Source of the DNA: an uncultured Pelagibacteraceae bacterium
GTDB lineage: Bacteria; Pseudomonadota; Alphaproteobacteria; Pelagibacterales; Pelagibacteraceae
Assembly (NCBI GenBank): GCA_902558205.1
Contig: CACECY010000003.1
Location: forward strand, 1-56,747
DNA length: 56,747 bases
Direction of reading: 5' to 3'
Shown piece by piece: positions 7,721-51,275 of this stretch (positions within the stretch are counted from its first letter, which is position 1; every line of letters starts with the position of its first letter). The translations under genes were made by a program, and so were the position numbers. The notes below the pieces were generated by a model that was given only the letters and a program-made list of their open reading frames with translations, was not told the origin of the DNA and did not search any database.

Positions 7721-7948
7721 ATGAATAAAGAAAACGCTAGTAAACTCTGGAAAATTATTCAGGAAGCTGGCGATTATTTAGTTGGTCAATTACCTGATCA
7801 TCCTAATCACCCTAAAGGAAGAAACTCATATGCTCATATTGCTCTTTGTGTTAAAAATAAGTTTGGCTTAAGTTACAAAGATATTCCTGATGAAAAATAC
7901 GATGAGGTAATCAAATATATTGAATTTTTAAAACAAAATCCGAGTTAA
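7721..7948 (+). CDS. small conserved-looking protein, ORF6C-like C-terminal motif
   Basis: This 75-residue protein has no signal peptide or membrane segment. It begins with a helix (KLWKIIQEAGDYL), then a His/Pro-rich turn (PDHPNHPKGRNSYAH), then KNKFGLSYKDIPDEKYDEVI. That last piece resembles the end of ORF6C domains found at the C-terminus of phage antirepressors, where a short K-x-F-G-x-x-Y-x-D-I-P motif precedes a helix. Only this half-domain is present; there is no DNA-binding KilA-N, Bro or ORF6N part. The gene diverges from the sulfotransferase across 69 nt and converges on the amidinotransferase gene. Coding probability is good because the frame is open with a clean ATG and typical composition. 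Function unknown. Confidence 0.7.
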   Translation: MNKENASKLWKIIQEAGDYLVGQLPDHPNHPKGRNSYAHIALCVKNKFGLSYKDIPDEKYDEVIKYIEFLKQNPS

Positions 7949-7951
7949 AAT

Positions 7952-9067
7952 TCATTGCTTAGGAAAATAATCTTTTAGTTCACCTTCTCTGTAAACATCT
8001 GCAGTACAACAATGAAGGCCACCTCCAAATGCATATGCGTCTCTTAAATCCACAGGAATAACCTCCATACCTAATTTATCTAATTGCTCTGCCTGGTAAA
8101 CTTCACTTTTTTCAACACACACAGTTTTAGGATCAAGTACCAAGACATTCATTGACAACCAAACAGATGAATAACACAGTGCTGGAGGCTCATTATGTGC
8201 TGGTTGTGCGCTATCAATAATTTCCCAACCATTATTCTCAAATAATTTTCTTTGGTCTTTTGGTAGTCTTCTTTGGGGGTTGTTAATAATTAAACCCTCT
8301 TTAATTGGTGTAAAAGTTGCATCAATGTGAATAGGATATGGATCACCTGGAAAATTTACAGCATGAACTCTATGATCTTTATAATGTCTTTTTATCCAGT
8401 CAATGCCCTTTAAATTGGTAGTAAATCCATGTTGAACAACTAAATCTTTGCCAAACCTTAAAACATCAGCTGCATCAAACAAAGGTTCTTCCTCTGTCGT
8501 GACAAAGTATTTTTTTTCAGTCCATTCTAATCTTTTTTGAACACCAATCTTATCGGATAAATAATCTTTTCTATAATCTTCATTTGTTAATCTTGGTTTG
8601 GGAGCAGACTCATGTCTCATATTTGGATCTTTGTTATAATAATGCTTCAGTAATGGTCTATAACATAAATATTCAAACCACCTGCAACGATAGCTCATAG
8701 TTGCCTCTAAAATTTCATTTCCAACTGTTAACAAAACATCTCTAGGAGGCATGCAGCCAAACATTGTCTCAGCTTCCCAATCAGGGGTTGATGTTTTCTG
8801 ACTAAAATCAATTGGGGTTGGTCGATCAACTTTAATTCCTCTTTTCTTAAGCATTTTTGTAAAATCATCTAAAAGTTGATTTGCTTTATCAATGCTATCT
8901 TTAGTTCTAGGACCAAACTGACCTCTCATATCACTATCTTCTGGTACTTTTGCATCTAACGCAGGTTCTGGAGCTGGAATGCATGTTCCATCAGCTCTTC
9001 CAACAATCACATGTTTTAATGGATCCCACTCGTTCCAACTATTAACTATTGTTTTATTATTAATCAT
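7952..9067 (-). CDS. arginine:glycine amidinotransferase-like enzyme
   Basis: Amidinotransferases move the amidino group of arginine to an amine; with glycine the products are guanidinoacetate and ornithine. The 371 residues show the whole family core: WNEWDPLKHVIVGRADG near the N-terminus, EPLFDAADVLRFGKDL around 196-211 holding the active-site Asp, PIHIDATF with the catalytic His near 245, and GGGLHCCTADVYR at the C-terminus with the nucleophile Cys at residue 353. This order matches vertebrate AGAT (GATM) and bacterial relatives. A second Cys directly follows the catalytic one; in vertebrate AGAT that position is Trp. The start lies 5 nt after the creatinase stop. Glycine is the likely acceptor by similarity, but other amines are possible. 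Confidence 0.92.
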   Translation of the reverse strand: MINNKTIVNSWNEWDPLKHVIVGRADGTCIPAPEPALDAKVPEDSDMRGQFGPRTKDSIDKANQLLDDFTKMLKKRGIKVDRPTPIDFSQKTSTPDWEAETMFGCMPPRDVLLTVGNEILEATMSYRCRWFEYLCYRPLLKHYYNKDPNMRHESAPKPRLTNEDYRKDYLSDKIGVQKRLEWTEKKYFVTTEEEPLFDAADVLRFGKDLVVQHGFTTNLKGIDWIKRHYKDHRVHAVNFPGDPYPIHIDATFTPIKEGLIINNPQRRLPKDQRKLFENNGWEIIDSAQPAHNEPPALCYSSVWLSMNVLVLDPKTVCVEKSEVYQAEQLDKLGMEVIPVDLRDAYAFGGGLHCCTADVYREGELKDYFPKQ

Positions 9068-9072
9068 TTTGA

Positions 9073-10290
9073 TTAAGTTTTTATAATATTGTGCTCAGGG
9101 CCAAAAGGAAATTTTGTAATGTTTTCTGCACCATTTTTGCCTATTATCAGAATGTCATGTTCTCTATAACCTCCTGCCCCTGGCTTTCCCTCTGGTATCA
9201 TAATCATAGGCTCCATTGAGATAACCATATTTTCCTCTAAAACAGTATCAATATCTTCTCTAAGCTCTAATCCAGCTTCTCTTCCATAAAAATGAGAAAG
9301 AACACCAAATGAATGACCGTAACCAAAAGTTCGGTATTGAAGATAGCCAAGTTCTGCAAATAATTCATTGAGCTCGTGACAAATTTCTGAACATTTCGCA
9401 CCTGGTTTAATTAATTCCAATCCACGTTTATGAACTTTGATATTTGCCTCCCATGCTTTTAAAGATGCCTCATCTGCTTGATCTAAAAATAAAGTTCTTT
9501 CAAGTGCTGTATAATAACCTGAAATCATAGGAAATGTATTAAGGGAAATGATGTCTCCTTTTTGAAGTTTTCTATTTGTTTTCGGGTTATGAGCCCCATC
9601 AGTATTAATTCCTGACTGAAGCCATACCCAGGTATCCATATACTCTGCTCCAGGATAAGATTTTGCAATTTCTCTTTCCATCTTATCTCTTCCAGAAATT
9701 GCAATTTCTAACTCTGTATTGCCTTCTCTAATATTTTTAACAATTTCCTCACCTCCAAGGTCAGCAATTCGTGCTCCATTTCTTATAATCTCTATTTCTT
9801 CATAAGATTTGATCATCCTTAAATTCATTAAATCTTTAGCAACATCTGAAAAGACTGAAAATGAGAACAATGAACCAATTTTATCTCTCATATCTAGCGT
9901 AATATGATCATATTCAAGCCCTATATACTTTGGTGGCTCGTCTCTACCAATAATTGATACTATTGCTTTTAAAAAATTATCTCTTTTCCAATCTGTATAA
10001 ATAATATTATCACAATGTGATCTCCTCCACGGCTGACTTGCATCTATATTAGCTGAAATTGTAGAGATTTTATCTTTAGTTATAACACATCCATAAGGCC
10101 TTCCAAAAGAACAATAAATAAAACCTGTATAATAAGCAATGTTATGCATTGAAGTTAAAATAATCATATCTAAATTATTTTTTTCCATCACTTTCCTTAA
10201 ATTAAGAACTCTTTGAGAGTATTCTTTATTTGAAAAAGGGAGTTTTGCTTTTTCTCCATTTTTTAATTCAAAAAAATCTGGTCTTTCCAT
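9073..10290 (-). CDS. creatinase (creatine amidinohydrolase) or close homologue, M24 fold
   Basis: Creatinase hydrolyses creatine to sarcosine and urea using a metal-free pita-bread fold. The 405-residue product aligns by eye along its whole length with Pseudomonas putida creatinase: YCSFGRPYGCVITKD, SANIDASQPWRR, YTDWKRDNF, GINTDGAHNPKT, GYYTALERTLFLD, FGYGHSFGVLSHFYGREAG and SMEPMIM. The residues corresponding to catalytic His232, Glu262 and Glu358 are all kept, each shifted by about one position. Metal-binding Asp/His sets of true aminopeptidase P enzymes are not all present, supporting creatinase over a peptidase. It sits 13 nt after an EamA gene and 5 nt before the amidinotransferase. 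Guanidinoacetate is a credible alternative substrate, given that neighbour. Confidence 0.9.
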   Translation of the reverse strand: MERPDFFELKNGEKAKLPFSNKEYSQRVLNLRKVMEKNNLDMIILTSMHNIAYYTGFIYCSFGRPYGCVITKDKISTISANIDASQPWRRSHCDNIIYTDWKRDNFLKAIVSIIGRDEPPKYIGLEYDHITLDMRDKIGSLFSFSVFSDVAKDLMNLRMIKSYEEIEIIRNGARIADLGGEEIVKNIREGNTELEIAISGRDKMEREIAKSYPGAEYMDTWVWLQSGINTDGAHNPKTNRKLQKGDIISLNTFPMISGYYTALERTLFLDQADEASLKAWEANIKVHKRGLELIKPGAKCSEICHELNELFAELGYLQYRTFGYGHSFGVLSHFYGREAGLELREDIDTVLEENMVISMEPMIMIPEGKPGAGGYREHDILIIGKNGAENITKFPFGPEHNIIKT

Positions 10291-10303
10291 ATTATTATTT
10301 TGA

Positions 10304-11209
10304 TTAATTTAATCCGATATATCTTTTATTCCATCTCATTATTAAACTATAATAAAATAAAGATATAAACAAAAAGAAGCCGCCAATAATTGTGTTGGAA
10401 TCAGGTATTTCATTAATTCCAAACAAAGGTAACCATACCCAAAAAATTCCTCCAATAACTTCTGTTAAAGATAATAAAGTCAATTCAGCAGCAGGAATTG
10501 CTTTAGATCCTATTGAATATAAAATTAAACCTAAACATACTAAAGTCCCATGTAATGAAAATAAAGAACTGTTATAGCTTGTTGAAAAAAATACTTGTCC
10601 TTTGAACAAAATTATAATTGTAGCAAATACAAAACAAAAGAATCCTGCAAAAGCAACTGTTGTAAATTTAGGAGTTTCTTTTCTCCATCTTAAAGTAACT
10701 GAGAAAACAGAAAAACCTACAGAAGAAGTAATTCCAAAAATGAATCCTACTAGAGAGTTTTCTCCAGTGTTCCCAAATGCCATAATAGCAATTCCAACTG
10801 TAGCAATGATAATTGATATCCAAACATTTGTTGAAATTTGCTCTTTTAAAAAAATAAAAGCCAATAGTGCTGTAAAAAAGGGCATAGCTGCTAAACACAA
10901 CAATGTAATAGCAGCTGTAGTATTTGTTATTGAATAAATAAAAGAAATCATAGCAATCCCAAGGCCTGAACCACCTAAAATTCCTGATATTCCTATTTTC
11001 AAGTAGTTCTTCCAAAATTTAGTACCCTCCTCAAAATAAAGATAAAGGTTAAGTAATGTAAAAATTGTAAGGCCTCTTCCAAAAATATATTGCCAGGGTA
11101 CTAGGTTTGGATTATCCATATATCTGACTACTAAAGGTCCGAAAGACCATAATATACCTGCAAACAAAACAACGGGAACTGCAATTCTAGGATTTCTTAA
11201 TTCAAGCAT
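10304..11209 (-). CDS. EamA-family (DMT) permease of the guanidino cassette
   Basis: The 301-residue product has about ten membrane helices in two EamA repeats. Typical segments are AGILWSFGPLVVRYMDNPN in helix 1, FLKEQIS at the end of the first repeat, and PAAELTLLSLTEVIGGIFWVW in the second. Its stop codon is 13 nt before the creatinase start, so it is probably the first gene of a three-gene operon with creatinase and amidinotransferase. That context suggests transport of a guanidino compound, creatine, sarcosine or an amino acid, or export of a product such as urea; sequence alone cannot choose. The gene follows moeA after 52 nt that must hold the operon's promoter, if it has its own. Confidence 0.87.
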   Translation of the reverse strand: MLELRNPRIAVPVVLFAGILWSFGPLVVRYMDNPNLVPWQYIFGRGLTIFTLLNLYLYFEEGTKFWKNYLKIGISGILGGSGLGIAMISFIYSITNTTAAITLLCLAAMPFFTALLAFIFLKEQISTNVWISIIIATVGIAIMAFGNTGENSLVGFIFGITSSVGFSVFSVTLRWRKETPKFTTVAFAGFFCFVFATIIILFKGQVFFSTSYNSSLFSLHGTLVCLGLILYSIGSKAIPAAELTLLSLTEVIGGIFWVWLPLFGINEIPDSNTIIGGFFLFISLFYYSLIMRWNKRYIGLN

Positions 11210-11261
11210 TCGCGAGAGAATAATTCTAAAAATTTACAACTACAACAAAATTTTAAGGACT

Positions 11262-12509
11262 TTAGTCTAAAATTTTATTTGAAATGTTTGGAAAAAAACA
11301 ATCAATAATTTGACCCTTTTTAAATTTTGATTGTCCATTAGGTAACACTGCCCATATATTTGATCTAACAAAAGAGTTAATTCTAAAGGACTCTTGACCG
11401 GGTAAAAGTTCTACCTGTACTTTACCATTTTTAGTTGTGTTAAGTTTGCTTTTTACAAATCTTGTTATGTTATTCTTTTTTTTAAAACTATTTTTCAATA
11501 TTGCTTTAATTGGTTTTTCTGGGGTCAAATTTAATATATTTTCCAAATAAGGATAAACAAAAAACCTAAAACATGCTGAAGATGAAATTGGATTTCCAGG
11601 TAACCCAAATATCGCTTTTTGTCTAATTCTTGCAAATAATATTGGTTTTCCTGGCCTAATCATTACACTCTTAAAATATTGTGTGGTTTTAAATTTTTTT
11701 ACAATATTAGGAACATAATCAAATTTGCCTGCTGATACTGCTCCAGAAGTTAAAATAATATCAAATTTTGAATTTAAGATTTTTTTAATTTTTGATCTAA
11801 ATAAACTTTGATGGTTATCTCTCAAAATACCAGCATTTTTAAAATTAAATAAAAAATTTTTACTTAAATTTTCAATATAATGACTATTTGAATTTCTTAC
11901 TTTCCAATTCGGAATTTTATTAGAATTAGATATTTCATTACCTGTAGAGAAAAAAATAATATTTATTTTTTTCTTAACTTTTATTTTCTGAACCCCCAAT
12001 GTTTTAAGAGCTAAAATATGATTTGGTTGAATAATTGTCCCTTTTTTAATAATCAATTGTCCTTTTTTATAATCTGATCCTTTAAATCTTACATGATTAT
12101 TTTTACTTACTTTATTATCAATTATAATAGATTTTGGATTATGTATATTGGGATAAAAATTAATCTTTTCAATTGGTATTATAGTATTAAAGGGTTTTGA
12201 AATTATTCCTCCAGTCATAATCTCAATTGTATTAAATTTTTTTACTCTTTTATTAAATGGTTTATTCCCTGCTGCAATAGATCCTACAATTATAAATTGC
12301 TTTGGTTTTTTTTTACTTAGATTTTTTGTGTCCTTTGAGTTAATTGCAAAACCATCGAAAGCAGCATTGTCACCTAATGGATGGTTAGATGGAGAAATAA
12401 TATCTTTTGCAACAACTCGATTTAAAGAATTTTTACTTAAAATTTCTTCATCTTGAATTTGAATTTTTGCTTTTTTTAAAATTTTTTTTGCTTGTTGATA
12501 ATTAATCAT
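11262..12509 (-). CDS. moeA: molybdopterin molybdenumtransferase
   Basis: MoeA inserts molybdate into adenylylated molybdopterin to form the molybdenum cofactor. The 415-residue product keeps the family order: an N-terminal segment DNAAFDGFAINS around residues 48-59, the molybdopterin-binding domain with ILTSGAVSAGKFDYV around residues 250-265, and RPGKPILFARIRQKAIFGLP with GNPISSSACF after it. The usual TSGGVS is TSGAVS here. The start overlaps the end of mobA by 8 nt, giving a mobA-moeA operon. The formate dehydrogenase operon that needs this cofactor starts just beyond mobA on the other strand. The composition is very lysine-rich, in line with the AT-rich genome. Confidence 0.93.
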   Translation of the reverse strand: MINYQQAKKILKKAKIQIQDEEILSKNSLNRVVAKDIISPSNHPLGDNAAFDGFAINSKDTKNLSKKKPKQFIIVGSIAAGNKPFNKRVKKFNTIEIMTGGIISKPFNTIIPIEKINFYPNIHNPKSIIIDNKVSKNNHVRFKGSDYKKGQLIIKKGTIIQPNHILALKTLGVQKIKVKKKINIIFFSTGNEISNSNKIPNWKVRNSNSHYIENLSKNFLFNFKNAGILRDNHQSLFRSKIKKILNSKFDIILTSGAVSAGKFDYVPNIVKKFKTTQYFKSVMIRPGKPILFARIRQKAIFGLPGNPISSSACFRFFVYPYLENILNLTPEKPIKAILKNSFKKKNNITRFVKSKLNTTKNGKVQVELLPGQESFRINSFVRSNIWAVLPNGQSKFKKGQIIDCFFPNISNKILD

Positions 12510-13125
12510 TTAAAATTTTTTCTGCCATTTCTAAATCTTCTTTAGTGTTAATATTAAAGAATGGATCTTGTTTTTCAAAAGTCATATTAATTATCCTAAC
12601 ACCAATATCATTAGCCCATCTTTCAACTTTTCTAGTTCCTATTTCAAGATCTTTATCCAATTGATCGACTAAATGAACTGACCATAAACCAAATATATTA
12701 TGTCTTTTTTCACCAGATTTCATAAAAAATAATTCACTTTCTTTTTCGTTAACTCTTTTTAAAAAATCATTAAAATTATCAATTTTAAAAAAAGGTGTGT
12801 CTGAAGGAAAAGATGCAATCCACTGATATTTCTTATTATTATCCTTTACCCATTTCATGGCGCTAAAAATACCTCCTAATGGTCCTAAGTTTTTTTTAAA
12901 ATCTTCAATCTTTATAATCTTGTCTGAATTTAAGTATTGAATTGAGCTATTAGCGACAATTAACACTTCATTAAAATCATCCAAAATTTCTTTGAGAATA
13001 TAATCAATAAGCATTTTGCCTCCTAATTTAGCTTGAGATTTATCTTCACCAAATCGTTTTGATTTTCCTCCAGCTAGTACTACAGGCAAAATATTGTTAT
13101 GTTGCATAATAAAAATATAAAACAT
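12502..13125 (-). CDS. mobA: molybdenum cofactor guanylyltransferase
   Basis: MobA attaches GMP to the molybdenum cofactor, giving the bis-MGD form used by formate dehydrogenases. The glycosyltransferase-like nucleotide-binding start PVVLAGGKSKRFGEDKS and the following KLGGKMLIDYIL identify the family, with GPLGGIFSAM and FPSDTPFF (the Asp metal ligand) further in. The frame is open from 13125, but the ATG at 13107 gives a protein beginning MQHNNILPVVLAGG that fits the family start better (201 residues instead of 207). It is the first gene of the mobA-moeA pair and is divergent from the formate dehydrogenase operon; the 24 nt between the longest frames must hold at least part of both promoters. 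Confidence 0.92.
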   Translation of the reverse strand: MFYIFIMQHNNILPVVLAGGKSKRFGEDKSQAKLGGKMLIDYILKEILDDFNEVLIVANSSIQYLNSDKIIKIEDFKKNLGPLGGIFSAMKWVKDNNKKYQWIASFPSDTPFFKIDNFNDFLKRVNEKESELFFMKSGEKRHNIFGLWSVHLVDQLDKDLEIGTRKVERWANDIGVRIINMTFEKQDPFFNINTKEDLEMAEKILND

Positions 13126-13149
13126 TAAAAATTGAATTAAAGAAATTAA

Positions 13150-13545
13150 ATGGATTTACGAATTTTAGAAATAGCCTCTCATACCGATAATAATAAGGTT
13201 TTAACCAATCCAACTCACAATTTTAAAAACAAAAATCCTCTTTGTGGGGATGAAATGGAAATAAGTCTTGTTGTTAAAGATGAAATTGTGAAAGATATGG
13301 GATATCAATGTAAATCTTGTGTTTATTGTCAAGCATCTGTCAGCTTATTATCAAGAAAAATAAAGAATAAGAAAGTAGATGAAATTAAAAACTTTATATC
13401 ACTCTCAGAAAAAATATTTGAAGATGCAAAATTTAATTTAAGCAAACATTGGAATGATTTTAAGGAATTATTTGACAAAAAAAATATCTCTAGGAAAGAA
13501 TGTCTACTTCTTCCTTTAAGAACTGTACTTAAAGCACTTAAATAA
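13150..13545 (+). CDS. NifU/IscU-like iron-sulfur scaffold protein
   Basis: The 131-residue product has the three-cysteine arrangement of NifU N-domain and SufU proteins: Cys in NPLCGDEM (near residue 32), Cys in GYQCKSCVYCQAS (near residues 52-58), and Cys in SRKECLLLP near the end. Scaffold proteins of this fold assemble or transfer Fe-S clusters. The middle segment carries three cysteines in a C-x2-C-x2-C pattern where the family usually has C-x2-C, and the HSCQ-like region of classical IscU is not seen. It heads the formate dehydrogenase operon, whose two large subunits need many Fe-S clusters, so a dedicated delivery role is reasonable inference. The general housekeeping scaffold is expected elsewhere. 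Confidence 0.8.
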   Translation: MDLRILEIASHTDNNKVLTNPTHNFKNKNPLCGDEMEISLVVKDEIVKDMGYQCKSCVYCQASVSLLSRKIKNKKVDEIKNFISLSEKIFEDAKFNLSKHWNDFKELFDKKNISRKECLLLPLRTVLKALK

Positions 13546-13546
13546 A

Positions 13547-14023
13547 ATGATAAAAATAAATAAAGAAATTTTTAAAAAAGCTTTGTTAGCTGGAATTTTT
13601 TCAGCATTTACAATTGGTGTCCTTACAGTTTTAACCTACAAAACTGCTCTAGGTTTATTCATCGCTGGATCATTTGGATCTTCAATGGTTTTATTATTTG
13701 GTTTTCCAGAAAGTCCATTTGCTCAACCAAAAAATGTTTTTTTTGGTCATTTAGTTACAGCACTTGTTGGTGTAGTCTTTGTTATTTTTATTCCTCTACC
13801 TATGTATATTAATATAGCATTAGCTGTGGGAGTTGGAATTTTTTTTATGATTTTGTTAAATATTGTCCATCCACCCGCTGGGGGTAACCCAATAATGGTA
13901 ATTATTGGAAGTGTTTCATATGATTACTTGCTAAGTCCAATAATTTTTGGGTGTATCATTATAATTTCATTAGCAATATTAATTAATAAATTTTTACTTA
14001 AAAAGAATTATCCGTTAAAATGA
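13547..14023 (+). CDS. HPP-family integral membrane protein
   Basis: This 158-residue protein has about four or five membrane helices and carries the family signature HPPAGGNP near residues 108-115, preceded by SFGSSMVLLFGFPESPFAQPKN near 42-60. HPP proteins are poorly characterised; chloroplast and cyanobacterial members have been linked to nitrite transport. The start is an ATG 1 nt after the NifU-like gene, and fdhD follows after 4 nt, so it is embedded in the formate dehydrogenase operon. Movement of formate, nitrite or another small anion is a plausible inference from this setting; no residue in the sequence proves it. Confidence 0.85.
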   Translation: MIKINKEIFKKALLAGIFSAFTIGVLTVLTYKTALGLFIAGSFGSSMVLLFGFPESPFAQPKNVFFGHLVTALVGVVFVIFIPLPMYINIALAVGVGIFFMILLNIVHPPAGGNPIMVIIGSVSYDYLLSPIIFGCIIIISLAILINKFLLKKNYPLK

Positions 14024-14027
14024 TTTA

Positions 14028-14867
14028 ATGAATTCTAAGTATAAGGTTCTCAAATTTAAAAAAAATAAATTTGAAAATACCAATGATTTAATTTCGATAG
14101 AAGAGCCTCTTGAAATTTCACTTAAATATCAAGATCAAAATAAATGGATAACTAGTAATCTATCAATCACAATGAGAACACCGGGTCATGATGAAGATTT
14201 AGTAAGAGGTTTTTTATTTAACGAACAAATAATTCAAAACTTAAATGAAATAAAAGAAATAGAAAGTATCGGCAACAAAGTTGGTCAATACAATATTCAA
14301 AATAAAATATTAATTACTTTAGATAATTCAAAAAATATTAATATTTCTAAAATAAAGAGAGATTTTTTAACAAATTCATCATGTGGGGTTTGTGGTAAAT
14401 CATCACTTGATGCTTTAGAAATTATCAAAAAAGAAAAAGTGTCTAATATAGAACCCAAATTATCTAAAGAAACTATTATTAAATCACCATCAGTATTGAG
14501 AGATAATCAATCTGAATTTTCAAAGACAGGTGGAATTCATGCAAGTGGTTTGTTTTCCTCAGATGGAAAATTAATATCTTTAAGAGAAGACGTGGGTAGA
14601 CATAACGCCTTAGATAAAATGATAGGAAATGCCTTGTATAAAAACCAAATTAATCCAAAAAATCAGTTCATCACATGCTCAGGACGTCTAAATTTTGAAC
14701 TAGTCCAGAAAGTTTTGATGACAAATATTGGCCTAATGATTGGTGTGGGTGCGCCAACTAGTCTAGCAATAGATCTTGCGAATAGGTTTGACATGACCTT
14801 GATAGGTTTCGTAAAAGAGGATAGTTTTAACGTTTACACAAATAACCAAAAAGTTATTATAAATTAG
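14028..14867 (+). CDS. fdhD: formate dehydrogenase accessory sulfurtransferase
   Basis: FdhD passes sulfur from a cysteine desulfurase to the molybdenum cofactor of formate dehydrogenase; without it the enzyme is inactive. The 279-residue product has the essential loop SSCGVCGKSSLDAL (around residues 117-130) with the two conserved cysteines, then GGIHASGLF, REDVGRHNALDKMIGNAL and SGRLNFELVQK. These cover the whole family fold. The gene lies between the HPP gene and fdsB in one operon, and the two coding regions are separated by 16 nt from fdsB. Its presence next to the catalytic subunits confirms that the following MopB protein is a formate dehydrogenase, not a nitrate reductase. Confidence 0.95.
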   Translation: MNSKYKVLKFKKNKFENTNDLISIEEPLEISLKYQDQNKWITSNLSITMRTPGHDEDLVRGFLFNEQIIQNLNEIKEIESIGNKVGQYNIQNKILITLDNSKNINISKIKRDFLTNSSCGVCGKSSLDALEIIKKEKVSNIEPKLSKETIIKSPSVLRDNQSEFSKTGGIHASGLFSSDGKLISLREDVGRHNALDKMIGNALYKNQINPKNQFITCSGRLNFELVQKVLMTNIGLMIGVGAPTSLAIDLANRFDMTLIGFVKEDSFNVYTNNQKVIIN

Positions 14868-14883
14868 AATTGCAGAAAATTTA

Positions 14884-16539
14884 GTGTCAAAAAATATTAG
14901 TAATTTATCTGGTAGAATTGGTTTAAAAGACAACCTATTTAAAAAGATGTCTGAAAACGTTCTTAACGACTCTCCAAAAGATATTAAAGATATTGCTAAA
15001 GAATATAATTTGGGAGTTTCAACCATTCACGGGGCAGAGAGTTTTTATGAGTTTTTAAGACCATCTCACAGAGAAAAAAAAGCTTTTGTTTGTAATGGCA
15101 GTGCGTGCATGTGTGCTGGAACTCAAGAAAAACTGAAAGAAACCCTAAAATCTAAACTTGGAAATGACAAAGTAGGAGAAATGTTTTGTTTGGGTCACTG
15201 CTATGAAAATCACGCATTCCACTATGATGGAGAAAACTATGCGGGAAAAGATATAGAAAAGATTGATCAAATTTTAAAAGGAGAAGATATTAAACAAGAA
15301 AAATTTTATTCTAAAAGTTATGCAACAACTAGCTTTTTGATGGATGATAAACTTTTGTCAACAGATCAATTTAAAGAACAGCTAAAAAAATTTTTAAAAA
15401 CAGATAAAAAAGAAATCATTAAATCTTTACTAGACTCGAACCTTACAGGAAGAGGTGGCGCAGGTTTTCCAACAGGAATGAAATGGGATTTTTGTAGTAA
15501 AGCAAAAGGTGATAAAAAATATGTTATTTGTAACGCTGATGAAGGAGACTCAGGTGCATTTTCAGATAGATACCTTTTAGAGGATCAACCCTTAAAGGTT
15601 ATTTTTGGAATGGTAATGTGCGGCCTGGTAATTGGTGGTGATGAAGGAGTATTATATATCAGAGGTGAATATCCAAAATCTATAGAGGCAATAAATGGAT
15701 GCATCAATGAACTTAAAAAATTAAACTTGCTTGGTGAAAGTATTTTAGGTACTGACTTTTCTTTTGATCTTGGAATTTGCATTGGTCAGGGTGCATACAT
15801 ATGTGGAGAAGAAACTGCTTTAATTGCATCTATAGAAGGAAGACGAGCAGAAGTAGATGTTAGACCTCCTTTCCCAGTTACAGAGGGACTTTATAAAAAA
15901 CCAACCGTAGTTAACAATGTTGAAACTTTAGCAGCAGCAACTGGAATTTTAATAAATGGTGCAGAAAAATTTTCATCAATTGGAAATAAAAAATCTGCAG
16001 GAACTAAACTAGTTTGTTTAGATAGTTTTTTTAATAATCCTGGTGTTTATGAAATTGATATGGGAACACCAATGAAAAAAATATTTAATGAAATAGGCGG
16101 TGGATATAAAGAACCTGTTAAAGCGTTTCAAATTGGTGGACCTTTGGGTGGTGTAGTTCCAATAGATGAAATTGAAAATCTAAATTTAGATTTTCAAGAA
16201 TTTGGTTCTAAGGGTTTTATGTTAGGTCATGCAAGTGTTGTGAGTATTCCCAAAGATTTTCCGATGACAGAATATATTCATCATTTATTTGAATTCTCTG
16301 CTGAAGAATCATGTGGAAAATGTTTTCCTGGAAGATTGGGTTCTTACAGAGGTAAAGAAATGTTTGATCAACTTAAGAAAAAGACAGCTAAAATTCCACT
16401 AAAATTATTAAATGAATTATTAGTTACCATGCAAAAAGGCTGTTTATGTGCTCTTTGTGGGGCAATACCTACTCCCATTATGAACATCTTAAAGTATTTT
16501 GGTGATGAAATTAAAAGTGATATGGTAAAAGATAATTAA
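14884..16539 (+). CDS. fdsB: NAD-dependent formate dehydrogenase, fused FdsG-FdsB (NuoE-NuoF type) subunit
   Basis: This 551-residue subunit takes electrons from the catalytic subunit to NAD. Residues 1-140 form a NuoE-like thioredoxin-fold [2Fe-2S] domain with CNGSAC near 70-75 and CLGHC near 102-106. The rest is NuoF-like: the FMN and NADH site GRGGAGFPTGMKW near 190, CNADEGDSGAFSDRY near 216, and a [4Fe-4S] site made by ESCGKCFPGR near 475 and CLCALC near 519. In Rhodobacter capsulatus the same parts are separate FdsG and FdsB proteins, so this is a fused version. It starts with GTG at 14884; no better ATG lies nearby. Its stop overlaps the fdsA start by one base. Confidence 0.94.
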   Translation: MSKNISNLSGRIGLKDNLFKKMSENVLNDSPKDIKDIAKEYNLGVSTIHGAESFYEFLRPSHREKKAFVCNGSACMCAGTQEKLKETLKSKLGNDKVGEMFCLGHCYENHAFHYDGENYAGKDIEKIDQILKGEDIKQEKFYSKSYATTSFLMDDKLLSTDQFKEQLKKFLKTDKKEIIKSLLDSNLTGRGGAGFPTGMKWDFCSKAKGDKKYVICNADEGDSGAFSDRYLLEDQPLKVIFGMVMCGLVIGGDEGVLYIRGEYPKSIEAINGCINELKKLNLLGESILGTDFSFDLGICIGQGAYICGEETALIASIEGRRAEVDVRPPFPVTEGLYKKPTVVNNVETLAAATGILINGAEKFSSIGNKKSAGTKLVCLDSFFNNPGVYEIDMGTPMKKIFNEIGGGYKEPVKAFQIGGPLGGVVPIDEIENLNLDFQEFGSKGFMLGHASVVSIPKDFPMTEYIHHLFEFSAEESCGKCFPGRLGSYRGKEMFDQLKKKTAKIPLKLLNELLVTMQKGCLCALCGAIPTPIMNILKYFGDEIKSDMVKDN

Positions 16540-20764: not shown

Positions 20765-21868
20765 TTAAAGAACATAGGGTTCAGGTCTTGCTTTTTTACC
20801 TAAAACTCTTTCAACTGCCATATTCGAGATATCAATAGATTGATATGCGCCTGTGGTAATCAATTCTGTAAGAGCTCTCCCTATTCCTGGAGCTTGCATT
20901 AGTCCTCTACCAGTAAATCCTGTTGCTAAATATACGTTTTCAAACTTAGGATGTTTGCCAACAACTGCATTGTTATCAAGTCTATTACAATCATAATATC
21001 CAGCCCAACCACCAGTAAGTTTTAGCTCCTCCATAGCAGGTATTCTTTGGGCTAAAGCAGGCCAAACTAATTCTTCAAAATCATCCCATGCTGGCTCTAA
21101 ATCATCTGCATCAAAAACTGATTTTGGTGACCCTGCTAAGTATTCTTTTCCCTCAGGTCTCCAATATACACCAGTTGTCAAATCACCAGTCAACGGCATT
21201 TCAGGAATATGTTTTGGGCATTTAACTCTAAACACTGTGTGTTTTTGAGGTTCGACAGGAATATCTTCCAACAATTCTTTTGTCCAGCATCCAGCAGCAG
21301 AAATAATTGTTTTAGCTTTTATTTCAGAAAGTGATTTTACTTCACCTTTTATAAACTCAGCGCCAAGTTCAGTTGCTTTGCTTTTTAAGGCGCTGTGAAA
21401 CATAAAAGGATCTATCCATCCCTCACTCTGATTATCTGTAAATGTTGCAGTTTCAATTCCTTCACTATTAATGTATGGAAAATATTTTGTTAACTCTGAG
21501 CCTTTAATATTTTTTGTTCCAGCTTCACAAGCTTTATGATTTTCTAAAGCCTTATACTGTTCTTCGGCATGTTCAGGTCCAAACATAAGTAGGTAACCAT
21601 TTGTTACCATACTAGCAGTTGGATTAGGATTTTTTTCAGTCTTGAGCAATTCAGGAATTTGAAAAATAAACTCTCTAGCAAATTTACCTAACAAAATATT
21701 TTCAGTTTGAAAAAACTGTCTTCTAAAACCTCCAAGTGAAAGAGGAAAAGATGCATTTTTATAAGTTGGGTCTCTTTCAATTACTTTTACTTTTCTACCT
21801 TCTTTAGATAGAAAATAAGCTGAAGCAGCTCCAATTATTCCACCACCGACTATTACTACATCATCCAT
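20765..21868 (-). CDS. FAD-dependent oxidoreductase of the DAO family (FOXRED1/sarcosine-oxidase-like)
   Basis: The 367-residue flavoprotein opens with a Rossmann FAD site, VVIVGGGIIGAASAYFLSKEG, and ends with the DAO family segment YLATGFTGRGLMQAPGIGRALTELI that contacts the flavin. The C-terminal part, with YDCNRLDNNAVVGKHP, resembles FOXRED1 and related bacterial oxidases that act on N-methyl or secondary amino acids such as sarcosine or dimethylglycine. It lacks the folate-binding domain seen in long sarcosine dehydrogenases. The gene follows tspO directly and converges on selO with 3 nt between. Creatine breakdown nearby would yield sarcosine, so a sarcosine substrate is attractive but unproven; glycine or D-amino acid oxidase activity are alternatives. 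Confidence 0.82.
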   Translation of the reverse strand: MDDVVIVGGGIIGAASAYFLSKEGRKVKVIERDPTYKNASFPLSLGGFRRQFFQTENILLGKFAREFIFQIPELLKTEKNPNPTASMVTNGYLLMFGPEHAEEQYKALENHKACEAGTKNIKGSELTKYFPYINSEGIETATFTDNQSEGWIDPFMFHSALKSKATELGAEFIKGEVKSLSEIKAKTIISAAGCWTKELLEDIPVEPQKHTVFRVKCPKHIPEMPLTGDLTTGVYWRPEGKEYLAGSPKSVFDADDLEPAWDDFEELVWPALAQRIPAMEELKLTGGWAGYYDCNRLDNNAVVGKHPKFENVYLATGFTGRGLMQAPGIGRALTELITTGAYQSIDISNMAVERVLGKKARPEPYVL

Positions 21869-26865: not shown

Positions 26866-29736
26866 TTATGCTGCATCTTCTTTAAACTCGTCCATGCTTG
26901 GACAAGTACAAAAAATATTTTTATCTCCGTATACATTGTCAACTCTCGCAACAGGAGGCCAAAATTTATTTGCTTTTAAGAATTTTGCTGGATATGCAGC
27001 TTGCTCTCTTGAATATTTATGATTCCATTCATCTGATGCTAATTCAATATCAGTATGCGGTGCATTTTTAATTGGATTATCAACTTTATCAAATTTACCT
27101 GAATTAATCATATCTATTTCTGACTTAATGCTAATCAAAGTATCACAAAATCTATCCAATTCAGATAAACTCTCACTTTCGGTCGGCTCAATCATCATTG
27201 TACCGGCAACTGGCCATGACATAGTTGGTGCATGAAATCCATAATCTATCAATCTTTTAGCTATATCTTCTTCAGAAATCCCAGTTTCACTTTTAATTGA
27301 TCTAATATCAATAATACACTCATGAGCTACATTACCATTTGAGCCTTTATAAAGAATTGGAAAATGGTCTTTGAGTCTATGTGCTATATAATTTGCATTT
27401 AGTATTGCAACCTGGGTAGCTAGTTTTAAACCTTGAGAACCCATCATTTTAATATACATCCAAGAGATTGATAGAATACTTGAACTTCCCCAAGGGGCTG
27501 CTGAAACTGCTCCTATTCCTGTAGCAGGTCCACAATCTTTAACAACTGGATGATTAGGTAGATAGACTTGTAAGTGTCTTTTACATGCAATCGGTCCCAT
27601 TCCTGGTCCTCCTCCACCATGTGGAATACAGAATGTTTTGTGTAAGTTTATGTGACAAACATCTGGTCCAAAATTTCCAGGTCTTGCTATACCAACAAGT
27701 GCATTTAAATTTGCACCATCCATATACACTTGACCACCATGCTTGTGAATTAACTCACATATATCTGTGATTTTTTCCTCAAATACGCCGTGTGTAGACG
27801 GGTATGTGACCATTAATGCTCCTAGATTTTCTGAGTGCATTTCAGCTTTTTTCTTTAAATCGTCATAATCAACATTTCCTTCTTTGTCACAATTAACAAC
27901 GACAACTTTCATTCCAACCATTTGTGCACTAGCAGGATTTGTTCCATGTGCTGAGCTTGGTATTAAACAAATATTTCTATTTTCCTCACCTCTGTCTAAA
28001 TGATATTTTCTAATTACCATTAATCCTGCATATTCCCCTTGAGCTCCAGCATTTGGCTGAAGTGAAACTCCAGAAAAACCAGTAATTGATCTTAACCAAT
28101 TTTTAAGATCAGTAAATAATGCTCTATATCCTTCCATCTGCTCAATAGGCACAAAAGGATGAGGCTCAGCCAATTCTCTCCATGAAATAGGTATCATTTC
28201 TGCAGTAGCATTTAATTTCATAGTGCATGAACCAAGTGCAATCATAGTTCTGTTTAGAGCTATATCTTTATCCTCTAACTTTTTAAGATATCTAAGCATC
28301 TCTGTCTCTGAATGATATGAATTAAAAACAGGATGTTCTAAATATTTAGAAATTCTTAATAAGTTTTTTGGAAGATTAGGTAAACTTACAGTAGGGTCTT
28401 CTTTTTTGATTGACTCTGCTGCATTAAAAATTTTTAATAATTGATTTACTCTATAAACATTTTTTTTCTCATCAAAAGAAACTGCTAACATCTCAGAATT
28501 TACTTTTCTGATATTAACTTTTTGATCTAATGCATTATTAAAGATTTGATCAGTTTTGTCCTTAGTAACAATTGTGACTGTATCAAAGAAATGATCTGAA
28601 TAAATCTTATATCCTGATTGCTTTAATTTATCTGCAAAATTTTTTGCTAATTGAGAGACTCTCTCAGCAATAGTTCGAATACCCTCTGGACCATGATAAA
28701 TAGCATATGCTGCTGAAACAATTGCTAATAAAGCTTGGGCAGTACAAATATTACTTGTAGCCTTGTCTCTTCTTATGTGTTGTTCCCTAGTTTGTAATGA
28801 TAATCTATATGCTTTGTTTCCATGTCTATCAACAGAGACACCTACAATTCTTCCTGGCATAGATCTTTTAAATTCATCTTTAGTTGCAAAAAAAGCTGCA
28901 TGTGGTCCACCATAACCCATTGGAATTCCAAATCTTTGAGAGCTTCCTACAGCTATATCTGCTCCTAGTTCTCTTGGTGTTTTTAACTTAGCAAGTGCTA
29001 ATAAATCGCAAGCTAAAATTGCTTTACCATTTTTTTTATGTATTTTACTTATTGGCTCACTTGGATCTTTTATATCCCCTAATGTTCCTGGATATTGCAA
29101 TATACCACAAACTAAATCTTCTTTTAATTGATCCAATACTTTGTCTTCATCACCAACAAGCACTTTTAATCCCATTGGTTCTGCTCTTGTTTGAATTACA
29201 TCAATTGTTTGTGGATGACAATTTTCCGAAACAAAAACTAAATTACTATCCTTTTTATTCAATCTATGGCTTAATCCCATAGCCTCTGCAGCTGCAGTTC
29301 CCTCATCTAATAGAGATGCATTTGCAATATCCATTCCCGTAAAATCAACCACCATTTGTTGAAAATTAAGTAACATTTCCAATCTTCCTTGAGCTACTTC
29401 AGGTTGATAAGGTGTATAAGAAGTGTACCAGCCTGGATTCTCTAGAATATTTCTTAATATTACATACGGAGTATAAGTTCCATAGTAACCCATCCCAATA
29501 AAATTTGAATAAATTTCATTTTTTTTTGATATTGCCTTTAGTTTTCTTAATGCTTCATATTCTGAATTAGATTCGCCAATATTAAGTTCATCTTTCAATT
29601 GTATTTTTTCTGGAACTGTACTTTTAATTAAATCATCTAAAGATTTATAATTAAGTTTCTTTAGCATTTTATTTTGATCTTCATCTGAAGGCCCAATATG
29701 TCTTTTCAAAAAATCTTTTTGGGAATTATGTAACAT
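26866..29736 (-). CDS. gcvP: glycine dehydrogenase (decarboxylating), P protein
   Basis: The P protein decarboxylates glycine and passes the aminomethyl group to the lipoyl arm of the H protein. The 956-residue product is the fused two-half form. The N-terminal half has RHIGPSDEDQNKML and ASLLDEGTAAAEAM, and the C-terminal half holds the pyridoxal phosphate lysine in HINLHKTFCIPHGGGGPG near residue 703, plus PYPSTHGVFEE-like and GFHAPTMSWPVAGTMMIEPTESE segments. It overlaps gcvH by one base. It is the last of gcvT-gcvH-gcvP, controlled by the glycine riboswitch upstream. The next gene starts 6 nt after its stop and no terminator is visible there. Confidence 0.97.
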   Translation of the reverse strand: MLHNSQKDFLKRHIGPSDEDQNKMLKKLNYKSLDDLIKSTVPEKIQLKDELNIGESNSEYEALRKLKAISKKNEIYSNFIGMGYYGTYTPYVILRNILENPGWYTSYTPYQPEVAQGRLEMLLNFQQMVVDFTGMDIANASLLDEGTAAAEAMGLSHRLNKKDSNLVFVSENCHPQTIDVIQTRAEPMGLKVLVGDEDKVLDQLKEDLVCGILQYPGTLGDIKDPSEPISKIHKKNGKAILACDLLALAKLKTPRELGADIAVGSSQRFGIPMGYGGPHAAFFATKDEFKRSMPGRIVGVSVDRHGNKAYRLSLQTREQHIRRDKATSNICTAQALLAIVSAAYAIYHGPEGIRTIAERVSQLAKNFADKLKQSGYKIYSDHFFDTVTIVTKDKTDQIFNNALDQKVNIRKVNSEMLAVSFDEKKNVYRVNQLLKIFNAAESIKKEDPTVSLPNLPKNLLRISKYLEHPVFNSYHSETEMLRYLKKLEDKDIALNRTMIALGSCTMKLNATAEMIPISWRELAEPHPFVPIEQMEGYRALFTDLKNWLRSITGFSGVSLQPNAGAQGEYAGLMVIRKYHLDRGEENRNICLIPSSAHGTNPASAQMVGMKVVVVNCDKEGNVDYDDLKKKAEMHSENLGALMVTYPSTHGVFEEKITDICELIHKHGGQVYMDGANLNALVGIARPGNFGPDVCHINLHKTFCIPHGGGGPGMGPIACKRHLQVYLPNHPVVKDCGPATGIGAVSAAPWGSSSILSISWMYIKMMGSQGLKLATQVAILNANYIAHRLKDHFPILYKGSNGNVAHECIIDIRSIKSETGISEEDIAKRLIDYGFHAPTMSWPVAGTMMIEPTESESLSELDRFCDTLISIKSEIDMINSGKFDKVDNPIKNAPHTDIELASDEWNHKYSREQAAYPAKFLKANKFWPPVARVDNVYGDKNIFCTCPSMDEFKEDAA

Positions 29737-30116
29737 TAACTAGCACTCTCCTTTGCAAATTTATCGTATTCTTCTTTGTTCATTAGACTATCCATTTCAG
29801 ACTGATCTTTCATTTTAAGTTTGAAAAACCATGCTGAACCCTCAGGATCTTCATTAATTTTTGAAGGATCATCAACAATTGCTTGATTAGTATCTACTAC
29901 CTCTCCACTAACTGGAGTGTAAACATCGCTAGCAGCTTTTGTAGATTCTACTACTCCCGCAGTTCCATCTTTTTCAACATTAGATCCTTTTTCAGGAAGT
30001 TCTGCAAAAACTATATCTCCAAGCATTTCTGTTGCATGTTTTGTAATTCCTATTGTAGCTACATCTCCCTCTAAGGTAATCCACTCGTGTTCTTTTGAAA
30101 ATTTTACTTCGCTCAT
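29736..30116 (-). CDS. gcvH: glycine cleavage system H protein
   Basis: The H protein carries the lipoyl arm that shuttles the aminomethyl group between the P, T and L proteins. The 126-residue product keeps the family pattern: [21 protein letters not shown] at the start, [16 protein letters not shown], and [16 protein letters not shown], where Lys60 is the lipoylated residue. The C-terminal [12 protein letters not shown] is also typical. It overlaps gcvT upstream and gcvP downstream by one base each (TAATG-type junctions), which is strong evidence for coupled translation. The gene for the L protein (lipoamide dehydrogenase) is not in the window and is normally shared with other complexes. 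Confidence 0.97.
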
Positions 30117-31219
30117 TAGTTTACTCCTTTCACATAATTTTTTTTATAAAATGGTAATGCACAAACATTTGCCAGATGTTTTTTTCCTCTTACTTCAAGA
30201 AAAATTTTAGTATCAACTTTTGAAAATTCTTTATCAACATAACCCATCGCAATAGGGCCGTTTACACTTGGTCCAAATGTGCCGCTAGTTATCTCACCAA
30301 TTTGCGTATCTTGATCATCAAATATTTTAGTTTTTTCTCTGGCAATTAATCTACCCTCAGGCTTAATCCCTACTCTTATTTGATTTGCTCCATCTTGCAT
30401 TTGGTTCATAATTTTTTTTGATCCAATAAAACCTCCATTTGATAATCTAGATTTTGAGATTGCCCATCTAAGGTTTGCTTCAACTGGTGTTTTATTAATA
30501 TCAAGTTCATGACCATATAAACATAATCCAGCTTCCAATCTCAAGGTATCTCTTGCCCCAAGTCCTATAAGTTGTGCTCCTTTTTCTATTAAATTTTCCA
30601 CAAATTTTTCAACTTTGTCGTTAGAAATTGAAATTTCAAATCCATCTTCCCCTGTATAACCTGATCTTGTGACAAATAATTTTTGATTCTCAGAATCGAA
30701 CCAATTTCCTGTCATAAAGTTTAATTGATCCACCCCATTTATAATTGAGTTTAAAATTTCAACAGACTTAGGTCCTTGTATTGCTATCAAAGATCTATCA
30801 TTGTCTAAATTCATTTTAAATTTTGTGCCTAATATATTTGATAAAATTTTAAAATCTTTATCTTTGCATGCAGCATTCAAAATAATTAAAAAACCTTGCT
30901 CAATTTTTGTAATAATCAAATCATCATAAATTCCAGCATTTTCATTCATTAAAAAACTATATTTAGAACAATTTAGTTTCAGATTCTTTAAATCTAATGG
31001 AAAAATTTTTTCAAGTTCTTCGGCTAAACTTTCATCGCCATAAATAAATAACTGACCCATGTGAGATACGTCGAATATCCCAGAGTGCGATCTTGTGAAT
31101 TTGTGCTCTTCAATAATACCTTTGCCGTATTGTATAGGCATTTCATATCCAGCAAATTCAACAAACTTAGCGTTGTTGATTTGATGAAGTTTATTTAAAG
31201 ATGTTTTCTTTATTTCCAT
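30116..31219 (-). CDS. gcvT: aminomethyltransferase, T protein
   Basis: The T protein releases ammonia and moves the one-carbon unit to tetrahydrofolate. The 367-residue product has [18 protein letters not shown] near the N-terminus, [11 protein letters not shown] near residues 46-56, [12 protein letters not shown]-like text reading [13 protein letters not shown] near 197, and [21 protein letters not shown] near 227-247, the folate-binding core. The ATG at 31219 is about 26 nt downstream of the second riboswitch aptamer, with AAAGAG a few bases upstream as a possible ribosome-binding site. It is the first gene of the operon. The sequence suggests no change of role; the full set with gcvHP makes glycine a one-carbon source. 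Confidence 0.97.
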
Positions 31220-31244: not shown

Positions 31245-31378
31245 ATTTGCCTGAGAGTTTTGCTCCTTCGGCGAGAACTTAATCTCTTTCCAGAGTTAAT
31301 ACGTTACGGTCCTTTTTGCCTGAGAGATTCCTGGGTGGTTGCTCCTTCGGCGCTACAATCATTTGTAGTCTCTCCCGT
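31245..31378 (-). ncRNA. tandem glycine riboswitch controlling gcvTHP
   Basis: On the minus strand two aptamers lie head to tail between the promoter and gcvT. Each has the hallmark glycine-aptamer core: GCCGAAGGAGCAA followed by CTCTCAGGC. The first core runs at about 31353-31318 and the second at about 31273-31249. The first aptamer opens with GGGAGAG and the second with CTCTGGAAAGAG, both forming P1-type pairings. Only about 26 nt separate the second aptamer from the gcvT ATG, with no clear terminator, so control may act on ribosome access rather than transcription. Glycine riboswitches on gcv operons are established, including in SAR11, where they have been tied to glycine/serine requirement. 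Confidence 0.95.
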
Positions 31379-31384
31379 AAATCA

Positions 31385-31413
31385 ATAATCTTACAAGTAA
31401 GGACGATTGTCAA
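31385..31413 (-). promoter_or_regulatory. sigma70-type promoter of the gcv operon
   Basis: On the minus strand TTGACA (31413-31408) and GATTAT (31390-31385) are separated by 17 nt. The expected start site, about 7 nt further, falls at 31378, exactly at the first base pairs of the riboswitch. The -35 box overlaps the last codon and stop of the EamA gene that lies upstream on the same strand, so this promoter sits inside that gene's end. Confidence 0.75.
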
Positions 31414-32288
31414 TTGGAAACACTTCTTTTATTCTTTATTAAAAGTGAATAAAACTGCAATAAAACTGCAAACAGAATGATGGCTCCTCCTATTATTCCA
31501 AACAATGATGGTCTTTCACTCACAAATAAAAAAGCCCATATGGGACCTAATACAGATTCGGACAACATAATTACACCAACTATAGCAGACGGAGTTGTTC
31601 TTGCTCCAATAGTAATAAATATAAAACCAAAACCAACTTGAAAAAATCCAGCCAAGAAACCTAAAAAAATATCATTAGGAGATATCATTAGTTTAGTTGA
31701 AAGTAAAAATCCAACTAAACATGAACTTACTCCAGCTACAAATTGGGCTGGGACCATATCTACAGTTGGGTATTTTCTAATTATAATTATTAAAATTGCA
31801 AAAACTATAGGCATTGAAAATGCTGCTAGATTTCCAGATAATTCACCTGGTGAAAGTGAATTTCCAACCATCAATAAAACACCTGTTATTGCTAAAAAAA
31901 TTGAAATCAAAGTAGTAACACTAATTTTTTCTTTTAAAAAAAAATATCCAAAAATAGCCAAAAATAATATCTGAAGTGAAATAATAAAGTTTGTATTAGC
32001 AACAGTAGTATTATACATGGCAAAAACGTATCCACAGAATCCAAAAGATAAAATTATTCCACCAAAGAACCCTGGTAAACCCGACAGATAAAATGATTTA
32101 AAAGTATCTTTTTTATAACTGATTATTATAAATACTAAAACTGTGAGAGTAAAAAAAAATGATCTCCAAAATAATATTTGCCATAAAGTGGCACCTTCAA
32201 ATGATTTTACAATAAGACCACCAAAACTTAAGCTTAATGCTCCTAAAAAAATTAATAATGGACCTGGTAGTTTTGTAATTATATTCAT
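31410..32288 (-). CDS. EamA-family (DMT) permease next to 5-oxoprolinase genes
   Basis: The 292-residue product has ten hydrophobic segments in two repeats, with LGALSLSFGGLIVKSFEGATLW in the first repeat, FFLKEKISVTTLISIFLAITGVLL between the repeats, and TTPSAIVGVIMLSESVLGPIWAF in the second. It starts on the last base of the frameshifted pxpC gene, so it belongs to the pxpB-pxpC transcription run. A role in moving 5-oxoproline, glutamate or a related compound is a fair guess from this context but is not shown by sequence. The gcv promoter overlaps its stop codon. Confidence 0.87.
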   Translation of the reverse strand: MNIITKLPGPLLIFLGALSLSFGGLIVKSFEGATLWQILFWRSFFFTLTVLVFIIISYKKDTFKSFYLSGLPGFFGGIILSFGFCGYVFAMYNTTVANTNFIISLQILFLAIFGYFFLKEKISVTTLISIFLAITGVLLMVGNSLSPGELSGNLAAFSMPIVFAILIIIIRKYPTVDMVPAQFVAGVSSCLVGFLLSTKLMISPNDIFLGFLAGFFQVGFGFIFITIGARTTPSAIVGVIMLSESVLGPIWAFLFVSERPSLFGIIGGAIILFAVLLQFYSLLIKNKRSVSN

Positions 32289-51154: not shown

Positions 51155-51156
51155 AT

Positions 51157-51214
51157 AAAAAAAAAGATAGTCCTTAAAAACCGGGAGCTAAAGATGGCTA
51201 AGAAGGACTATCTT
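51157..51214 (-). promoter_or_regulatory. terminator-like hairpin adjoining the lysE start codon
   Basis: On the minus strand AAGATAGTCCTT (51214-51203) pairs perfectly with AAGGACTATCTT (51175-51164). The arm runs into nine T, ending at 51157, and the lysE ATG begins 3 nt later. The 27 nt loop includes AGCC and AGCT segments able to make a small inner stem (shown on the plus strand as AGCT and GGCT). As a leader of lysE it would act as an attenuator; as the end of another minus-strand transcript it would be an ordinary terminator. I could not match it to a known riboswitch. Confidence 0.6.
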
Positions 51215-51275
51215 TATCAATATAGCATATCCCAAAAAAAATGCATTATCGATTTTTTTCAAATATAAAGGATTT

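Follow-up and report, generated by a model that had tools for sequence, protein, structure and literature searches.

An EamA permease, creatinase and amidinotransferase operon conserved in SAR11 bacteria: a possible salvage cassette for creatine-type guanidino compounds

A 56,747-nucleotide stretch of DNA from an uncultured Pelagibacteraceae bacterium (GenBank assembly GCA_902558205.1, contig CACECY010000003.1), termed here the window, carries an operon of three genes encoding an EamA-family permease, a creatinase and an L-arginine:glycine amidinotransferase-type enzyme (AGAT). The cassette is real and conserved, and is probably catabolic. Within the genus the permease and AGAT genes form a fixed pair to which creatinase is added as an optional middle gene, and linkage of AGAT, creatinase and transporter genes recurs in other genera and in another family of the class. 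The chances appear to be about even that the three genes together serve to salvage small creatine-type guanidino compounds, and it is suggested, more cautiously, that AGAT might run in reverse, converting guanidinoacetate to glycine.

The cassette and its enzymes

The first-pass annotation of the window, made from the sequence alone, described three minus-strand genes with gaps of 13 and 5 nucleotides (nt), and its coordinates, strand and spacing are all exact (Table 1): 13 nt lie between the EamA stop (10304) and the creatinase start (10290), and 5 nt between the creatinase stop (9073) and the AGAT start (9067). The gene identities that it gave, and the guanidino theme, are supported by full-length enzyme matches and kept catalytic residues. 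Comparison of EamA, creatinase and AGAT with three relatives each gave nonsynonymous divergence (dN) of 0.04-0.29 and synonymous divergence (dS) of 1.27-2.36, the latter near saturation; the low dN relative to dS, together with a gene order that recurs across the genus, argues that the cassette is not a product of chance. A 75-amino-acid (aa) open reading frame (ORF), convergent with AGAT, is a conserved neighbour: its cluster (c4) is present in 18 of the 40 context loci L062-L101, the window not counted, and a Pfam search with it returned no match.

Creatinase from P. putida, which converts creatine to sarcosine and urea, matches the window protein over its full length (PDB 1chm, E 1.4e-160). 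Solved creatinases (1chm, 7yto and 1kp0) gave E values of 1.4e-160 to 1.4e-147, and the best non-creatinase match within the M24 proteins was an Xaa-Pro dipeptidase (E 2.7e-27). In a rebuilt alignment with 1chm, identity was 59.0% over 398 aligned residues and C60, F62, R64, H232, Y258, E262, C298, R335, E358 and H376 were all kept, so that the checked set is identical in the two proteins, as had been claimed for the catalytic residues; the PDB numbering and the active-site roles of H232, E262, E358, R335, R64, F62 and Y258 are those which we take these residues to have. The window enzyme, whose activity is predicted, differs from that of P. putida in having an EamA permease and AGAT as operon partners.

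Human AGAT (PDB 1jdx) is the closest solved relative of the window AGAT (E 7e-87, 295 bits), with 45.0% identity over 351 residues in a rebuilt alignment. SxtG (6u1r; E 4e-63, 217 bits), HsvA (5wpi; E 2.9e-57, 198 bits) and StrB (1bwd; E 7.5e-51, 176 bits) are also related to it over the whole length, but match more weakly than the human enzyme does. These three enzymes belong to biosynthetic settings. The Asp, His and Cys said to be kept are present in the alignment as D254, H303 and C407 of human AGAT, presumably the catalytic residues, which correspond to D198, H247 and C353 in the window protein; D170, D305, R322, S354 and S355, which we take to be the arginine-binding set, are complete, and these residues are thus common to the window protein and the human structures (1jdx/1jdw). 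Differences from the human enzyme are the bacterial operon shared with creatinase and two replacements near the active site, N300 to Tyr and M302 to Ile; the AGAT of genome G456 has Ile and Thr at the same positions. The only Pfam match to the window AGAT was to the arginine-deiminase family, at 25.3 bits just above the cut-off of 22.8.

Several further amidinotransferase genes were encountered. An AGAT paralog in L064, L076, L204 and L205 is preceded by clusters of GMC oxidoreductase, HD and TauD-like genes (annotated on L064) and, in the three longer of these loci, followed by EamA and 2OG-Fe(II) oxygenase clusters; the L064 copy is 76% identical to the window AGAT and has Tyr at position 354. 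More distant amidinotransferases are encoded at 7109-8281 of L098 and 6858-8042 of L097 (32% and 35% identity, respectively), that of L098 lying within a long same-strand gene run and having as its closest PDB match StrB, an inosamine-phosphate amidinotransferase. On L202 (contig C15 of G137; 235-829), a fragment of AGAT with one in-frame stop in the match and the 75-aa ORF occur again, inverted, at the opposite contig end, and the contig is perhaps an amplification chimera. Phage carriage of either enzyme was considered and rejected, as scans of viral contigs found no encoded relatives among 33 pattern matches with the AGAT alignment or among 70 with the creatinase alignment.

The permease contains an EamA domain in a single stretch, residues 10-144 (PF00892, 58.3 bits against a cut-off of 28.2). 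The best NCBIfam model, 2A78, scored 52.6 bits, below its cut-off of 230.2, and no NCBIfam model exceeded its cut-off, hence no finer family is assigned.

Table 1. Features of the window, with the cassette genes first.
Feature	Position	Strand	Basis
EamA/DMT-family permease, 301 aa, first gene of the operon	10304..11209	-	Pfam PF00892, ortholog distribution
Creatinase (creatine amidinohydrolase, EC 3.5.3.3), 405 aa	9073..10290	-	PDB 1chm match, active-site set
L-arginine:glycine amidinotransferase-type enzyme (AGAT, EC 2.1.4.1), 371 aa	7952..9067	-	PDB 1jdx match, residue set
75-aa ORF, convergent with AGAT, conserved neighbour	7721..7948	+	Recurrence of cluster c4
DAO-family FAD oxidase, possible sarcosine or glycine oxidase	20765..21868	-	PDB 1y56_B 'sarcosine oxidase', E 2.4e-24
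gcvP, gcvH, gcvT glycine cleavage genes	26866..31219	-	NCBIfam gcvT, gcvH and gcvP models above cut-offs
Glycine riboswitch, upstream of gcvT	31297..31387	-	Rfam RF00504, 65.2 bits

Gene linkage in the genus and beyond

Among 297 genomes of the family, creatinase (E <= 1e-60) was found in 52 and AGAT (E <= 1e-20) in 107. The genus was represented by 100 genomes besides the window's own, all at least 90% complete; creatinase was present in 34 and AGAT in 93, and every creatinase genome also had AGAT. Eighty of the 100 were searched further: all 34 creatinase genomes, all seven that have neither enzyme, and 39 of the 59 that have AGAT alone. Every one of the 73 AGAT genomes, but none of the seven others, has an EamA ortholog (E <= 1e-60; Fisher p 3e-10, uncorrected for relatedness), and in 71 of the 73 the EamA and AGAT genes were either side by side or flanking creatinase. 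The order EamA-creatinase-AGAT was found in 33 of the 34 creatinase genomes, the remaining one (G188) being cut by contig ends, with gaps between matches of 4-19 nt for EamA-creatinase and 8-18 nt for creatinase-AGAT, and EamA lay directly upstream of AGAT, at 3-61 nt, in 38 of the 39 AGAT-only genomes. The exception is G152, where EamA is followed by a threonine-aldolase-like gene with no AGAT between them and an AGAT paralog is located elsewhere. In G234, one of the seven genomes with neither enzyme, the threonine-aldolase-like gene runs off the contig end where AGAT would sit, and this may not be a true absence. These counts and spacings make EamA-AGAT the core, with creatinase as an optional gene in the middle. 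The result that the first-pass annotation named as refuting it, that the three genes are never conserved together, is therefore excluded. The interpretation given there is partly supported; it did not foresee that only the EamA-AGAT core is fixed and that creatinase is optional.

A single gain or loss of creatinase in the genus was rejected, since a quick AGAT tree (81 rows, with 14 of 74 inner branches well supported and the G152 row a long-branched paralog) implies at least seven changes of state among the same-genus rows; over all 81 rows there are at least nine changes, of which well-supported branches force three. The best 80 of at least 580 AGAT-encoding stretches, at 92-95% identity, were assigned to Pelagibacteraceae/Pelagibacter (79) or to Alphaproteobacteria (one) and added no kin outside this group.

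The threonine-aldolase-like gene, which encodes a pyridoxal phosphate enzyme (Pfam Beta_elim_lyase; best NCBIfam model GntG, 71.1 bits, below the cut-off of 230), occurs in 37 of the 80 same-genus genomes, directly downstream of AGAT at 4-16 nt in 34 of the 37, and is absent from the window. Other genera of the family have creatinase in 17 genomes, 13 of them without a close AGAT and many of them incomplete. Nine loci were fetched from other genera of the family in which a single block recurs, carrying creatinase (L091-L093, L095, L100, L101), AGAT (L077, L078) or AGAT followed by creatinase (L096). Clusters of DoeA-like and PotA-type importer genes lie directly behind the enzyme or enzymes in eight of the nine, L095 being without them, and a EutA-like cluster is present in six; the L096 representatives scored 382 bits with the PotA model, over its cut-off, and below the cut-offs of the models for the EutA- and DoeA-like proteins. 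A tenth locus, L094, has EamA and creatinase without AGAT or importer.

In a draw of 385 genomes from the class, 11 were positive for AGAT at E <= 1e-40: the genome of the window, two others from its genus, five in which the AGAT was close (593-757 bits) and three in which the match was weak. Two of these families were then searched at E <= 1e-100, and AGAT was found in 14 of 61 and 8 of 14 genomes, respectively. In nine of the 14 AGAT genomes of the first family, a creatinase gene (52.7-58.1% identity) is next to AGAT, divergent in seven (L194, L261, L263, L264, L265, L266, L269) and convergent in two (L267, L268); the L267 creatinase was detected by tblastn only and is not in the ORF table, and L261 and L264 leave the contig inside creatinase. 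In addition, a PotA-type gene (64% identity) is located near AGAT in L267, and both L267 and L268 have solute-binding-protein genes. Adjacency of AGAT and creatinase in tandem, divergent and convergent forms therefore points to functional coupling, and not to inherited order alone. In the second family, AGAT of L196 comes after HIBCH- and HIBADH-like genes and is itself followed by serC and a serA-like gene; HIBCH/HIBADH-like genes precede AGAT in L275, an HIBCH-like gene does so in L273, and no recognised AGAT neighbour was found in L274 or L276.

Further neighbours were observed in individual genomes. The AGAT paralog of G152 has a DAO+GcvT fusion next to it, AGAT of G596 is near MttB and a DmdA-like gene that scores below its cut-off, and AGAT of G582 is near serC with a serA-like gene. 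The G152 paralog lies in L071 (4433-12513) with genes for a homocysteine S-methyltransferase-like protein, the fusion, a small S-adenosylmethionine methyltransferase, a GbcA-like Rieske oxygenase, a SET-domain protein and a DddP-like M24 protein, which looks like a demethylation cluster for some methylated compound. The methyltransferase that follows this paralog was rejected as a guanidinoacetate methyltransferase (GAMT): its best solved match was Methyltransferase-like 27, with weaker matches to glycine sarcosine N-methyltransferase and none to GAMT up to E 0.01. On L197 (G456, 9283-15681), AGAT is the first gene of a series continued by EutA-, EutB-, EutC- and DoeB2-like genes, which resembles a cluster for ectoine-type degradation.

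A salvage reading and its alternatives

AGAT catalyses a reversible amidino exchange between arginine/ornithine and guanidinoacetate/glycine and does not use sarcosine; creatine and guanidinoacetate are one N-methyl group apart. In a salvage cassette, the permease (EamA here, a PotA-type ABC importer in related genera) would import both compounds. Creatinase would convert creatine to sarcosine and urea, with sarcosine passing to glycine via sarcosine or DAO-type oxidases, and AGAT would take guanidinoacetate, which has no N-methyl group, and combine it with ornithine to yield glycine and arginine, an amidino transfer that would save nitrogen otherwise lost as urea, so that both branches would end in glycine. 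We infer in this way the transporter substrates, the direction of AGAT in the cell and the purpose of the cassette. The fullest form of the proposal is tentative: SAR11 AGAT might be a catabolic guanidinoacetate:ornithine amidinotransferase, freeing glycine from environmental guanidinoacetate and keeping the amidino nitrogen as arginine, while the adjacent creatinase takes creatine, the two enzymes splitting the creatine family by methylation and feeding a need for glycine. An account that ends in glycine is supported by the threonine-aldolase-like, DAO+GcvT, MttB/DmdA-like and serC/serA-like neighbours of AGAT, all of which belong to glycine or N-methylglycine metabolism. Moreover, the recurrent AGAT-creatinase adjacency and the importer genes suggest that the enzymes share substrates taken up from outside.

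Several observations weigh against this reading. No creatinase adjoins AGAT in five of the 14 AGAT genomes of the first other family: L193 and L262 have a DmdA-like gene instead, L270 has only DegT, the EutA-like gene of L271 is weak, and in L272 no neighbour was recognised. A DegT-type aminotransferase follows AGAT in eight of the 14 and has no role in the account, nor is there a place in it for the ectoine-type EutA/B/C- and DoeA-like genes beside AGAT or for a glycosyltransferase near AGAT in L062. The replacements of N300 and M302 leave the acceptor open, and the direction in which AGAT would run is not decidable from sequence. Riboswitch control of the cassette was rejected, as the single glycine riboswitch of the window is upstream of gcvT and none is near the cassette. 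The window is contig C3 of a 622,143-base assembly that is 53.89% complete, and the pathway of this genome itself therefore cannot be judged. Finally, EamA/DMT proteins are often exporters, and an export reading would therefore fit.

The alternative that survives best, itself unlikely, is that EamA and AGAT make a guanidino compound and either export or accumulate it, with guanidinoacetate as a solute or AGAT as a source of ornithine, and that creatinase, though part of the operon, serves separately in scavenging. Such a role would accord with the fixed EamA-AGAT pair, the optional creatinase and the exporting habit of many DMT proteins, and the threonine-aldolase-like gene could supply AGAT with glycine; nevertheless, the AGAT and creatinase genes are again neighbours, in different arrangements, in a second family, and in other genera either of them is followed by genes for an importer.

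The first-pass annotation had itself offered two readings, of which the scavenging of creatine with release of urea fits better. The other, a guanidinoacetate cycle between AGAT and creatinase, fits less well because 59 of the 93 same-genus AGAT genomes lack creatinase. In this cycle AGAT would run forward and the creatinase homologue would cleave guanidinoacetate, so that arginine and water would give ornithine and urea with glycine as a recycled carrier. The near-invariant tandem order in creatinase genomes is in its favour, as is the distribution of urease, which was found in 11 of 34 creatinase genomes, one of 39 AGAT-only genomes and none of the seven with neither (11/34 versus 1/46 without creatinase, Fisher p 2.3e-4). 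However, the urease-creatinase association received no support from independent pairs on the AGAT tree, creatinase in other genera mostly occurs without a close AGAT, and the creatine-site residues are identical to those of P. putida creatinase. Furthermore, a ureohydrolase-family gene is present in 74 of the 80 genomes, including all 34 with creatinase and missing from six AGAT-only genomes, so that genomes with creatinase are already supplied with other urea-forming enzymes; two of these genes, checked in G017, are agmatinase-type. Taken together, the forward cycle appears improbable. Urease was also rejected as an obligatory partner, being absent from 23 of the 34 creatinase genomes and not found in the incomplete window genome. 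The premise that these bacteria lack GAMT is compatible with a search of 39 genomes in which none matched human GAMT at E 0.001, a search that had no positive control.

It is equally doubtful that AGAT uses another acceptor or donor, an amine or amino acid other than glycine, as in SxtG, HsvA or StrB, with the cassette handling a different guanidino metabolite: the altered residues at positions 300 and 302, in the window and in G456, and the DegT aminotransferase, GntG-like aldolase and EutA/B/C-like neighbours would allow it, but the human enzyme is the closest solved relative and the arginine-binding set is complete.

Neighbouring genes and biological setting

A DAO-family oxidase, glycine cleavage genes and formate dehydrogenase were said to share the window with the cassette and possibly to offer an onward path for sarcosine or glycine, and all three are found there. 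The oxidase is below all NCBIfam cut-offs, with a weak match to sarcosine oxidases, and in 12 of the 40 context loci its cluster is separated from EamA-AGAT by a few genes; we infer a link to the cassette, and where the oxidase would act in the route is a guess. Glycine might be passed onward by the products of the glycine cleavage genes. The formate dehydrogenase alpha subunit is above its model cut-off, and both it and glycine cleavage are general functions. Elsewhere in the window, pxpC (5-oxoprolinase subunit C; 32288-33233, minus strand) is split into ORFs of 202 and 100 aa in different frames, one matching the front and the other the back of the same family models, and a frameshift or sequencing error is therefore likely. 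An rhtB small RNA family match (RF01814, 83.7 bits; 51148-51230, minus strand) lies at the front of a 204-aa ORF (50540-51154) that we take to be an RhtB/LysE-type exporter.

AGAT is best known as the first enzyme of vertebrate creatine synthesis. A SAR11 creatinase is already in print: Thompson et al. 2013 (PMC3686209) placed a SAR11 gene cluster named 'Creatinase' in the core of SG1a (subgroup 1a) and mentioned genes turning glycine betaine and creatine into glycine, but the creatinase passages of that paper name no amidinotransferase, permease or operon. The main text of Sun et al. 2011 (PMC3160333) is without the terms 'creatin', 'amidino' and 'guanidino'. Catabolism of creatine and sarcosine has been proposed for Ca. 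Indicimonas of AEGEAN169 (PMC11366302), likewise a marine oligotroph, with creatine passing via sarcosine to glycine, but 'amidino' and 'guanidino' do not occur in the main text. Diplonemids have gained genes for glycine amidination and methylation and can make creatine (PMC10161547), and are thus a possible source of it. Literature searches on amidinotransferase with SAR11, Pelagibacter or marine bacterial creatinase found no description of a link to AGAT. The parts are therefore known enzymes, and their combination, with the fixed EamA-AGAT core, appears to be undescribed in the literature searched.

SAR11 bacteria rank among the ocean's most abundant cells, and a dependence on glycine or serine is reported for them. 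If the salvage reading is true, the cassette would provide a concrete route from the creatine and guanidinoacetate of animals and protists to glycine, arginine and urea in bacteria.

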